Part shown: one piece after another, positions 9,060 to 41,118 of the stretch
Numbering within the stretch: the stretch's first letter is position 1
Layout of the letters: every line of letters starts with the position of its first letter
Assembly: GCF_019879105.1 (NCBI RefSeq)
Contig: NZ_CP082247.1
Location: 124,001-188,000 of the forward strand
Reading direction: 5' to 3'
From: Natrinema sp. SYSU A 869
Lineage (GTDB): Archaea; Halobacteriota; Halobacteria; Halobacteriales; Natrialbaceae
Length of the DNA stretch: 64,000 nucleotides
Made by a program: the position numbers and the translations under genes
Notes under the pieces: model-generated
The model's input: the letters and a program-made list of their open reading frames with translations, nothing else
Told to the model about the DNA's origin: nothing
The model's database searches: none

Positions 9060-9310
9060 CTTCGGTGACGTTCTCCCCGGCGGAAACGCCGAGGCTTCCC
9101 GTACCGTAGGTGGGATATTTGCCGGTCTACGATACGACCTGTTCTCTCGTGCGAAACGTCCCGCTTTCGCGGTCGAACAGGTGTACCGATGGCTGTGTCG
9201 TTCGAAAGGCGCTTTGCGCCTTTCGCGATGACGAGAGAGCAAAGCTCTCTCGAACCACCACACAGCCGTTCTCCTATCCGCGCCATGCGGACTCGGAGTT
9301 ATGAATGGAC
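9060..9310 (-). pseudogene. IS1341/IS605-type right-end and TnpB tail remnant
   Basis: The minus strand contains VHLFDRESGTFRTREQVVS followed by a stop, matching the TnpB tail at 39707 onward (SVHLFDRSEGCFAPREQVV). A GC hairpin with the GGCGGAAACGCC core near 9080 corresponds to the right-end hairpin of such elements, and the sequence closely resembles 62996-63060. Inside the remnant, 9199-9255 is an insertion of two perfect hairpins. The TnpB body is absent. Confidence 0.7.
9191..9267. repeat. Three-way-junction palindrome (paired-hairpin insertion)
   Basis: Outer stem GGCTGTG (9191-9197) pairs with CACAGCC (9261-9267). Inside are a perfect 10-bp hairpin CGAAAGGCGC/GCGCCTTTCG with loop TTT (9203-9225) and a perfect 9-bp hairpin CGAGAGAGC/GCTCTCTCG with loop AAA (9232-9252). 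The homologous site near 39780 has only a simple 5-bp stem, so the block is an insertion. Confidence 0.7.
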
Positions 9311-9438: not shown

Positions 9439-9711
9439 TTAGTCGATATACAGCGCTTTCCACTCTTTTCGGTCCTGGATAGCCCGCTCACCATCTTCTG
9501 TAAGTGCGTAATAGTTGGTTCTCCTATCGAGTTGACCCTTTTCGACAAGTTCTTTGTTGACAATAGTATCGAGATTCGGATACAGCCGTCCGTGATTGAT
9601 CTCGCTACTATAATACTGCTCGATTTCGCCTTTGACATCCTGTCCAGATGGGCGATCAGCGCCAGCGATCACGTATAAGAGGTCTCGTTGAAACCCCGTG
9701 AGATCATCCAT
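9439..9711 (-). CDS. PadR-family transcriptional regulator (paralogue 1)
   Basis: This 90-residue winged-helix protein follows the PadR pattern: LTGFQRDLLYVIAGADRPSG, a recognition segment INHGRLYPNLDTIVNKELVEKG, and a wing RRTNYYALTEDGERAI. It lacks the C-terminal dimerisation helix of long PadR proteins, as is usual for the small haloarchaeal type. It is a close paralogue of the gene at 10104. No target gene is adjacent; the neighbours are transposon remnants. Confidence 0.85.
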   Translation of the reverse strand: MDDLTGFQRDLLYVIAGADRPSGQDVKGEIEQYYSSEINHGRLYPNLDTIVNKELVEKGQLDRRTNYYALTEDGERAIQDRKEWKALYID

Positions 9712-10103: not shown

Positions 10104-10397
10104 TCACTCAGATTCTGAGGGTAACTCGTCAACGTACTGGTCTTCCCACCCCCGTCGAGCCTCGAGTTCACGGCGGCCACGAGCGGTGACTGTGTAGTAA
10201 TTCGTTCGCTGGTCGAGTTCGCCTTTCTCGACGAGGCCCTTGTCGACGATTTCATCGAGGTTCGGATAGAGCCGTCCGTGGTGAATCTCTTTCTCGTAAT
10301 ACTCTTCGAGTTCGTCTTTGATTGCGAGTCCGTGTGGATCGTCCTGCCCGGCGATCGTGTATAACAGGTCACGCTGGAAGCCAGTAAGATCGTACAT
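10104..10397 (-). CDS. PadR-family transcriptional regulator (paralogue 2)
   Basis: The 97-residue protein begins MYDLTGFQRDLLYTIAGQDD and contains IHHGRLYPNLDEIVDKGLVEKG and a wing QRTNYYTVTARGRREL. It is strongly similar to the protein at 9439, so the two arose by duplication. The ATG at 10397 is chosen because the in-frame extension upstream is not conserved in its paralogue. Short PadR proteins of this kind bind DNA as dimers, often near their own promoter. No regulated neighbour is evident. Confidence 0.86.
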   Translation of the reverse strand: MYDLTGFQRDLLYTIAGQDDPHGLAIKDELEEYYEKEIHHGRLYPNLDEIVDKGLVEKGELDQRTNYYTVTARGRRELEARRGWEDQYVDELPSESE

Positions 10398-10739
10398 ATC
10401 GGCATTTCTGTGTATTGACGGATAAGGATTCCGAGAAGAGACGAAAGAAAGGATATAGCGCATGGAGGACGCCTCGGTCATGTAGGCTTCTCCTGACAGG
10501 GCCTTACTGAGAGGAATAGCTACGCACTGGTATCGTGTCTGGAAGACTATCACTCAGCTCTACTATCGGTCAGATTGATTAGATTTTGTAGAGCGAGAGT
10601 GGACATCACGTCAGCTACTGGAGCTTGGTATTTGACTCCATCTTGCTTTATTATATCTTTTAAATATAGTTCGAGAAATAGAGATGTTTGGTGTCAAAAC
10701 GTAGTCCCTGATTGGATTTAAGTGTGATCTACAGCCAGC
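10398..10739. other. AT-rich intergenic stretch
   Basis: It contains an AT-rich run around 10650-10680 (TTTATTATATCTTTTAAATA), which could be promoter-like, but no gene reads out of it. It precedes a decayed IS6 transposase. Confidence 0.4.
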
Positions 10740-39306: not shown

Positions 39307-39655
39307 GTGACGCACCCGGAGCGGTCCGCCGAAGATGTTAAGGAAGTCGTACAACGGTACTGGAGTGGCCGTGCCGAGTCATACGACGATGACGGAATTT
39401 CGGGCGTCCACGCCGCCGAGCAGCGCGAGGCGTGGCTGTCGGTTCTCCGAACGTGGACCGGTGACCCATCGCGACGCGTTCTCGATCTCGGGTGTGGGAC
39501 GGGCACGATATCGCTGCTGTTGGCGGCATTGGGACACGACGTCACAGGCATTGATCTGTCGCCTCACATGCTCGAGCGCGCTCGAGCGAAGGCACAGCGC
39601 GCGGATCGTTCAATCGATTTCCACACCGGGGACGCTGAGGAATTACAGTTGCCCG
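39307..39655 (+). pseudogene. Class I SAM methyltransferase, truncated by IS1341-type element
   Basis: From a GTG at 39307 the frame reads RYWSGRAESYDDDG, the SAM-binding VLDLGCGTGTISLLLAALGHDVTGIDLSPHML and FHTGDAEELQLP, then hits the element at 39656. The second half of the Rossmann domain and the substrate part are missing. Joining base 39655 to 41119, as precise excision would, continues the open frame to 41363 in phase, but that extension does not look like a methyltransferase. Confidence 0.75.
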
Positions 39656-41118
39656 TTGACATCCTCCCCGCCCTAAAGGGCGAGGATTCCCGACCGCGTT
39701 GGGATATTACGGTTCGCAGTTCACGACCTGTTCTCGTGGGGCGAAACAGCCCTCACTACGGTCGAACAGGTGAACCGATGGCTGTGCCAACCAGCCGTTA
39801 TCCCTATCACCGCCATCCGTGGCGAGACTCGGGAGTACCTTTTGCCGAATGTTCTCCGCACCATTCACGTCCGCGTTCGCAACCGTATCGCATTTCTCAC
39901 ACACGTACAACCCGCGTTCAACACGCTGGCTGTCGTCCGTGTGACCGCACACCGAACACGACTTCGACGTATCACGTTCTGACACTAACTCCACGTCGAT
40001 ACCTTCGGCTTCCGCCTTGTAGTCGAGCAGCGTCGTGAAGCGGTCGAACGCCCACCCGTGCAAGTCGATATTGCCGTGGTCGCCCCAGTTGCGGGACTCG
40101 CCGTTCTCATCGTCTTCACGGATGCCGCCGAGGTCGCCAACGACAAGCGTTCCGACACCTCGTTCGACACACTCCTCAACAATCGATTTTGAGAGGGCGT
40201 GCAAGAAGTGTGTCCGGCGACCCGTCCGCTTGCGGTCAAGACGAGTAGCCTCACGAGACGAAGAATCATCGCACTTCGCCTTCTTCTTCGTGAAGTAGTA
40301 TTCGTCCTCTTTGAGTGCGCCACCCGGATACAACACAGATTCTCCGCCAAACGAGACGGTGGCGAAGTTGCAAATCCCGAGGTCAACACCAGCCACTTCA
40401 TCGCCCGGCGGTTCCGGATCGATAGTGGTGCGACAGAGGAATTGCAACCGCCACTCGTCGTACTTGTAGACGGCACGAACCTGTTGAATGTCCCACTCGG
40501 TCAGGTCAACATCTGGTCGAGTTTGATACTCACACAGGATGAAGTCTGAACGGTGTTCTTTGAGGTTGCGGCCTTTCGAGAGGCGGACACGGGTGAACTG
40601 TGCGTCGTGCTTGAAGCCAGCCGCTTTGAATGACACGGTTGAACGTGGGTGGGAATCTCCGTGTTTACGGTAGCCGGGCGGTCGGGCACGGTCGTCGCCG
40701 TTCCGACGCTTGCCGAACCAGCTGTTGAACGCCTCAGCGAGTTCTTCGAGAACGCGCTGACTGGATTGAGAATGTAAGTCCGTGTAGCGTTCGTGGCTTT
40801 TGAGTTCAGCTTTGAGTTCCCCGTCATCGGGAATCTCGCCCGTTTCGTCCCACTGTTCTTGTGCGTAGTAGCGACCGACGTTCCAGAGTTTTGAGGCGGC
40901 CCATCCGAGTTGGTCGAGGTCGTCACGAACCTGTCGCTGGTTCGTAATCGTCGCCTCGAATGTTCGGACGGTTCGGATCATTTCTGGCTTCATAACTAGT
41001 TATGAACGTCGTTTTCTTAATAGTGTTGGTTGACGTGGAATATCCGGCCTTACCATCGACGGTGGATTGCGTAAGAGCTGTCGGTTGTATCCCGCCCTAA
41101 AGGGCGGGGTTTAGCCTT
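39656..41118 (-). mobile_element. IS1341-type element (TnpB only) with TTAC/TCAA boundaries
   Basis: On the minus strand the element is preceded by TTAC (41122-41119), starts AAGGCTAAAC followed by a GC hairpin with CGCCCTTTAGGGCG, and ends in a similar hairpin followed by GGATGTCAA (ending at 39656). TTAC on the left and TCAA at the right end match the cleavage motifs known for IS608-like elements. Only TnpB is encoded, so it needs a TnpA in trans. Confidence 0.82.
39707..40993 (-). CDS. tnpB: TnpB RNA-guided nuclease of IS1341-type element
   Basis: The 428-residue protein has the OrfB N-terminal helices, RuvC-I AGVDLGICNFATV, a RuvC-II-like TLVVGDLGGIRED, a zinc finger CSVCGHTD and CEKCDTV, and RuvC-III ANADVNGAENIR. 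The RuvC-II position that is usually Glu (as in LEDL) is Gly here. The frame is intact and ends about 50 bp from the right end, so a guide RNA would overlap the 3' part of the gene and run into the flanking methyltransferase sequence. Confidence 0.85.
   Translation of the reverse strand: MKPEMIRTVRTFEATITNQRQVRDDLDQLGWAASKLWNVGRYYAQEQWDETGEIPDDGELKAELKSHERYTDLHSQSSQRVLEELAEAFNSWFGKRRNGDDRARPPGYRKHGDSHPRSTVSFKAAGFKHDAQFTRVRLSKGRNLKEHRSDFILCEYQTRPDVDLTEWDIQQVRAVYKYDEWRLQFLCRTTIDPEPPGDEVAGVDLGICNFATVSFGGESVLYPGGALKEDEYYFTKKKAKCDDSSSREATRLDRKRTGRRTHFLHALSKSIVEECVERGVGTLVVGDLGGIREDDENGESRNWGDHGNIDLHGWAFDRFTTLLDYKAEAEGIDVELVSERDTSKSCSVCGHTDDSQRVERGLYVCEKCDTVANADVNGAENIRQKVLPSLATDGGDRDNGWLAQPSVHLFDRSEGCFAPREQVVNCEP

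Follow-up and report, generated by a model that had tools for sequence, protein, structure and literature searches.

A probable mobile two-hairpin repeat in the omega-RNA hairpin of haloarchaeal TnpB elements

Described small repeats and the cassette family

In haloarchaea, small repeats termed SMR-A have reportedly been described in Haloquadratum walsbyi by Dyall-Smith and co-workers, and in the mitochondria of fungi (Allomyces) there are double-hairpin elements in which two hairpins form one mobile unit. According to the 2011 Haloquadratum paper (PMC3119063), the SMR-A repeats (HqIRS42, HqIRS43 and HqIRS55) are about 110 bp long and non-coding with inverted ends, insert without target duplication, and strongly prefer the palindromes of IS605-type elements or PATEs. 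In the same paper, repeats of one type are commonly more than 95% identical, most events lie outside the transposase ORF, and the mover is termed enigmatic (PMC3119063). A second group for comparison is the GTAG- and CGTC-tagged REPs, which include the Rickettsia palindromic elements and, as described in PMC3733652, are short and palindromic, often dimers, and in some cases intragenic.

The window analyzed here, a stretch of 64,000 nucleotides from Natrinema sp. SYSU A 869 (contig NZ_CP082247.1, positions 124,001 to 188,000), contains a 60-nt insert in the omega-RNA-like remnant of a TnpB element. We regard this insert as probably a non-autonomous haloarchaeal small mobile repeat, a cassette in which conserved single-stranded junctions connect two hairpins. 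The structural change at 9191–9267 is the signature of such a repeat rather than a modification of one remnant. Comparison of related sequences supports the mobility of the repeat well; counted against this reading is that no transposase is linked to the cassette.

Compared by description, the cassette has its nearest published counterpart in SMR-A, which it resembles in being short, non-coding and haloarchaeal, in causing no target duplication, and in occurring in IS605-type elements; it also has inverted ends, TGGTTCGA/TCGAACGA, with one mismatch. It differs in length (54–66 nt, with 60 nt for the window insert, versus about 110 bp), in having two hairpins with copy-variable stems (44 stem words among 90 cassettes, versus more than 95% identity within an SMR-A type), and in that its closest tnpB insertions lie in frame inside the coding end, whereas SMR-A events are mostly outside the ORF. 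On the palindrome preference the observations are mixed: tnpB insertions occur in several lineages, but most sampled cassettes have no Rfam omega-RNA match and a loose test for hairpin targets was negative. By description, then, the cassette is set apart from membership in SMR-A, with the same kind of working and a different build. A scan of H. walsbyi plasmid PL47 found no repeat bounded by inverted terminal repeats, and the PL47 gene has no match in 170 genomes of the family. Apart from SMR-A, no haloarchaeal double-hairpin repeat in TnpB was found in the literature covered, subscription journals and supplements being outside its scope.

The cassette is likewise comparable with the REPs. These, as described in PMC3733652, have CGTC repeats in bacterial phyla and family-specific stems, in contrast to the variable stems and conserved junctions of the cassette. 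The cassette's TCG-TCATCA does read CGTC beside its first hairpin, but those bases are partly paired and the unit is a double hairpin. The Allomyces elements share the two-hairpin unit but belong to mitochondrial genomes, and the likeness is one of description only. For the TGATGA junction, a hammerhead-like interpretation was considered and rejected, as the core does not fit.

Across the family, the design is 54–66 nt in the order TGGTT, hairpin, TCATCA, hairpin, AACGA; the junction strands are conserved and the stems are variable yet complementary. The pattern TTCGA-N-TCGNSATSACGA-N-TCGAA has six forward matches in the genome of the window and is present in 61 of 100 relatives, and the same pattern read backwards has none. 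Of 294 genomes of the phylum, 35 contain a stricter pattern, all of them among the 53 genomes of the same order; the other 241 have no match, and the backward control is zero throughout. Among 34 cassettes, chosen to have 60 nt or more of flank on each side and thus without copies at contig ends, the preceding base is G in 33 and the following base C in all 34, and the outer triplets are TGG in 32 and CGA in 34. The cassette set, drawn with a strict pattern and mostly from one locus per genome, is biased toward conserved copies. With that bias, the 90 distinct cassettes among the strict-pattern matches listed have perfect hairpins in 159 of 180 cases, and only 27 of their 1,662 stem pairs are not Watson–Crick. 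Twelve of the 44 stem words occur at both hairpin positions.

The window structure and its omega-RNA host

On the minus strand, window positions 9191–9267 read GGCTGTG-TGG-60 nt-CACAGCC. The 5′ arm of the host hairpin (RNA sense GGCTGTG, plus strand CACAGCC; 9261–9267) is followed by the hairpin's original loop triplet, TGG in RNA sense (9258–9260), which by comparison with empty relatives has been retained beside the insert. The double-hairpin cassette comes next (9198–9257; 60 nt, delimited by the empty relatives and the family pattern), and then the 3′ arm (RNA sense CACAGCC, plus strand GGCTGTG; 9191–9197), which predates the insertion, the close haloarchaeal relatives without insert reading GGCTGTGTGGCACAGCC at the host hairpin. 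Within the cassette, again on the minus strand and in RNA sense, the order is TGGTT, the 9-bp hairpin Ha (CGAGAGAGC-TTT-GCTCTCTCG; 9232–9252), the junction strand TCATCG (9226–9231; family consensus TCATCA), the 10-bp hairpin Hb (CGAAAGGCGC-AAA-GCGCCTTTCG; 9203–9225), and AACGA.

The preliminary description of this DNA had reported a 7-bp stem (9191–9197/9261–9267) enclosing two perfect hairpins, and this is confirmed. The predicted three-way junction of the minus strand has a folding energy of −48.2 kcal/mol, whereas shuffled sequences average −24.2 (z = −7.7; none of 200 shuffles was as good), and folding the region with DNA parameters gives z = −8.0. GC hairpins are abundant in haloarchaeal intergenic DNA, and the structure could in principle be a chance hairpin pair or an unrelated terminator-like structure. 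This reading hardly deserves credence given z values of about −8 and zero backward-control matches for the conserved junction pattern, and it is refuted by homologous insertions with empty counterparts.

The host RNA is sot0042 (RF02656; PMC12558985), and the cassette sits in one of its consensus hairpins. The Rfam alignment runs from 9304 to 9074 on the minus strand and covers the full model (positions 1–174; 65.6 bits, E = 9.5e-17), with the host stem at model positions 44–48/56–60 and the long insertion of the window copy in hairpin 44–60. The score of this cassette-bearing copy is under the RF02656 gathering score of 88, and the cassette is no part of the sot0042/IS200–IS605 omega-RNA family, which has 36 matches in the same genome (E up to 1). 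In full-length relatives, sot0042 RNA overlaps the 3′ end of tnpB. The window copy (9074–9304) has no tnpB to overlap: the frame ends two codons upstream of the hairpin, and tnpB homology is lost upstream. There the cassette is now a passenger in a dead remnant. Beside the remnant lie two similar adjacent ORFs (9439–9711 and 10104–10553; LTGFQRDLLY...HGRLYPNLD), which we take to be probably paired PadR-type regulators.

The placement of the stem within the guide-RNA region, also proposed at the outset, is borne out, in that Rfam puts it inside the predicted sot0042 scaffold. The comparator used then, an element at 39656, does have a simple GGCTG/CAGCC hairpin at the model position, but as a divergent relative it misled. 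That intact element has a cassette-free omega-RNA (39665–39840, minus strand; RF02656, 150.2 bits) and a tnpB of 428 amino acids (39707–40993, minus strand; PF01385 and PF07282 above cut-off), whose tail overlaps the omega-RNA hairpins. From this comparison alone the stem seemed to have grown by insertion. It did not, because the closer insert-free relatives already have the 7-bp stem and TGG loop (GGCTGTG-TGG-CACAGCC, RNA sense). In passing, the start of the ORF at 39307–39656 resembles a SAM-dependent methyltransferase (VLDLGCGTG), and the gene seems to be split by the tnpB element because the element begins inside this ORF.

Filled and empty tnpB sites

Empty and filled elements form clean pairs, GGCTGTGTGG|CACAGCC versus the same with 54 or 60 nt added. 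The insertion point is exact (GG / CACAGCC), with 0 nt duplicated and 0 nt lost. Empty sites were aligned for two tnpB families, and there the cassette shows neither target duplication nor coding capacity. By exact pattern, the filled site occurs in 12 of 392 genomes of the order. The nine named contigs are from Natronosalvus hydrolyticus (two), Natronorubrum sulfidifaciens, N. thiooxidans, Halobiforma haloterrestris, Natrialba hulunbeirensis, Natronocalculus amylovorans, Natrinema limicola and Natronococcus pandeyae. The 17 distinct filled copies comprise seven inserts of 54 nt, eight of 60 nt, and one each of 58 and 61 nt, the last two decayed; the two main stem types, +54 and +60 nt, are both in frame. 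These pairs are natural, near-identical TnpB elements that differ in whether the guide-RNA scaffold has a 54- or 60-nt branch, and the tolerance of omega-RNA to insertion is therefore directly testable.

All filled copies are identical in site, orientation and junctions, as they would be after one ancient insertion followed by many exact losses. We nevertheless consider that history very improbable. No flanking repeat explains exact loss, cassette-free elements near-identical to filled ones exist, two insert lengths occur at the site, and cassettes with the same stems occur at other sites. On the present tree of the flanks, moreover, 17 filled and 17 empty elements are intermixed, and the distribution of the 54-nt type forces at least five changes; the tree of the downstream 122 nt alone has a weaker signal and is likewise mixed. 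The closest pairs point the same way. Between the Natrinema limicola copy (L086; L146 is the same locus) and cassette-free L100 there are 14 differences in 1,203 flanking bases (3/103, 3/250 and 8/850), as against 32 or 33 in 250 between L086 and the other 54-nt carriers and 97 in 273 between L086 and L087. The Natronocalculus copy L145 is nearer to cassette-free L108 than to other carriers on either side.

A stronger alternative to a mobile repeat, possible although we think it unlikely, is that short tracts pass from one tnpB element to another with no transposition, through gene conversion or template switching where a hairpin stalls DNA polymerase. It would fit the occurrence of just two main stem types among 17 distinct filled copies, and the fact that L086, L142 and L087 have in common both the insert in hairpin 2 and an additional hairpin inserted into the loop of their terminal right-end hairpin. 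Yet between the two inserts of L086, cassette-free relatives (3–4 differences in 103) are about as close as L142 (4 in 103), and upstream L086 is far nearer to cassette-free relatives (3/250) than to L142 (33/250). In addition, cassettes with the 54-nt stems turn up in a TnpB family unrelated to this one and, at one site, outside tnpB. Counted against the mobile-repeat reading is, likewise, that the two main stem types at this site could represent two founders spread by recombination.

In genome G151, the gene of that other TnpB family has an in-frame 54-nt cassette built from the same stems (GQAESAWFERRSLSSSRKSPIFERPPETATA; open over 452 residues), and genome G397 holds a close cassette-free counterpart of the gene (GQAESTPPETATA). 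The site outside tnpB, in genome G339, has the stems of the G151 cassette with one loop flipped. Insertions at other positions add to these. In two genera (L191 and L192), a different 57-nt two-hairpin cassette lies in frame in the first hairpin of sot0042 RNA, in intact tnpB genes of 445 and 443 amino acids. A related cassette is found near the second hairpin of another lineage (L053 and L055), where the sequence reads into a stop codon and a search for TnpB motifs was negative. In L087 and L205, a TGGTT...AACGA cassette is nested in the loop of the inserted terminal right-end hairpin.

The filled elements L080–L088, L142 and L145 share their 3′ end, and their homology to intact tnpB ends at varying points about 50 to 600 nt upstream, as if they had been truncated from the 5′ side.

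Fold, frame and stem variation

The host hairpin lies within the C-terminal coding tail of tnpB, and insertions in long open tnpB frames preserve the frame, with one type meeting a stop when its loop is GTA. Twelve of the 15 filled copies with 54- or 60-nt inserts read through to the normal TnpB end (GCVVVRE...FRTTQPSVHLFDRESG), and the other three have an in-insert stop at a loop reading GTA. The frame with insert is open over its full length in Halobiforma haloterrestris (444 amino acids) and over 441 residues from stop to stop in Natronosalvus hydrolyticus; in Natrinema limicola it is open for 398 amino acids and terminates in the insert. In the proteins from Halobiforma and Natrinema, Pfam matches the two TnpB domains. 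Because 12 of 28 background cassettes have lengths divisible by 3, the few in-frame insertions are only suggestive of selection, and with three of 15 copies also stopping inside the insert, we rejected frame retention as strong evidence for it.

The preliminary description had further suggested that the insertion was kept because it preserves the RNA fold. When the predicted folds of filled and cassette-free right ends are compared, 15 of 17 filled copies keep every cassette-free base pair and all seven stem pairs; the two exceptions, L088 and L091, are decayed. The rest of the predicted fold is thus unchanged, and some filled elements have full-length tnpB, but the causal part of the suggestion fares less well. 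Shuffled inserts retain on average 72–99% of pairs in the same 15 copies, so retention is mostly explained by entry at the hairpin tip; hairpins just as perfect occur in copies of the repeat elsewhere, and the window copy is a remnant. On these predicted folds, neutral insertion together with the repeat's own structure explains the data as well as selection for the RNA fold does.

A stronger form of this suggestion, that the three-way junction arose and has been retained for a benefit to TnpB function, seems to us unlikely. It would agree with the retention of the cassette in elements whose tnpB is full-length and whose predicted fold is otherwise intact, and with the occurrence of stem changes on both sides (GAGAGAC to GAGAGAT; GAGAGACC to GAGAGAGC). 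However, most of the fold survives shuffled inserts, most homologs lack the cassette (the 12 of 392 genomes noted above carry it, by exact pattern), and sampled cassettes, most without an Rfam omega-RNA match, have stems that are equally perfect and variable. The repeat also provides material for studying how a stem can remain perfect as its sequence changes.

The loops vary in a patterned way. Where copies at the tnpB site share a stem but differ in the loop, the loops are reverse complements in nine of 64 pairs; for triplet loops as a whole, the frequency of such flips is 0.080, against a shuffle mean of 0.020 and maximum of 0.053 (2,000 shuffles). This excess also fits the copying of short tracts discussed above. 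All 143 perfect hairpins with triplet loops have a closing C-G pair, and 102 of them have a GNA loop or its complement TNC; this bias is weaker evidence than it appears because a GNA/TNC loop is also found in 112 of 267 perfect hairpins when all analyzed loci are taken together with the cassettes. In DNA, a GNA loop with a closing C-G pair is unusually stable, which would favor a DNA single strand.

For a mobile repeat, the following course may be envisaged. The cassette lies exactly between G and C in the tip of the second omega-RNA hairpin, without target duplication. Because its ends can pair with each other and a hairpin tip is entered, a branch would be added with the host RNA fold and protein frame left intact, and the host element could therefore keep moving, carrying the cassette along. 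With less certainty, transfer might occur as a folded DNA single strand, through a trans-acting transposase or template switching at hairpins. A more far-reaching proposal, which we offer tentatively and with more doubt than confidence, is that stem-variable, junction-conserved modules move as folded single-stranded DNA into G|C hairpin tips, those of other modules included, and so build branched, working guide-RNA scaffolds and in-frame TnpB tails, the stems being kept by copying at the DNA level and not by selection on RNA. The cassette provides a way into the question of how small mobile repeats that lack a transposase move in haloarchaea.

Target preference was assessed on the 28 non-tnpB cassettes (54–66 nt). 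In a strict test (the flanks, once joined, must give a perfect arm of 7 bp or more), five of 28 cassettes scored against 141 of 6,412 control GC sites (p = 0.0004), with six tnpB-site copies left out of these target controls. A loose folding test gave no difference (18 of 28 cassettes versus 961 of 1,647 control GC sites, p = 0.57). In a shuffled-partner test, whose set includes tnpB copies, arms of at least 5 bp were found in 38% versus 14%. Because the strict test is positive and the loose one negative, hairpin loops are one target among others, and we do not claim that all cassettes lie in them.

Two further observations concern genomic surroundings. The cassettes of L079, L113, L128, L136 and L204 each have a tRNA gene no more than a few hundred bases away. 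In the genome of the window, an intergenic stretch dense in hairpins (L009; C3:948500–949000) has a complete cassette flanked by hairpins that resemble the halves of the window cassette and are spaced about 240 nt apart.
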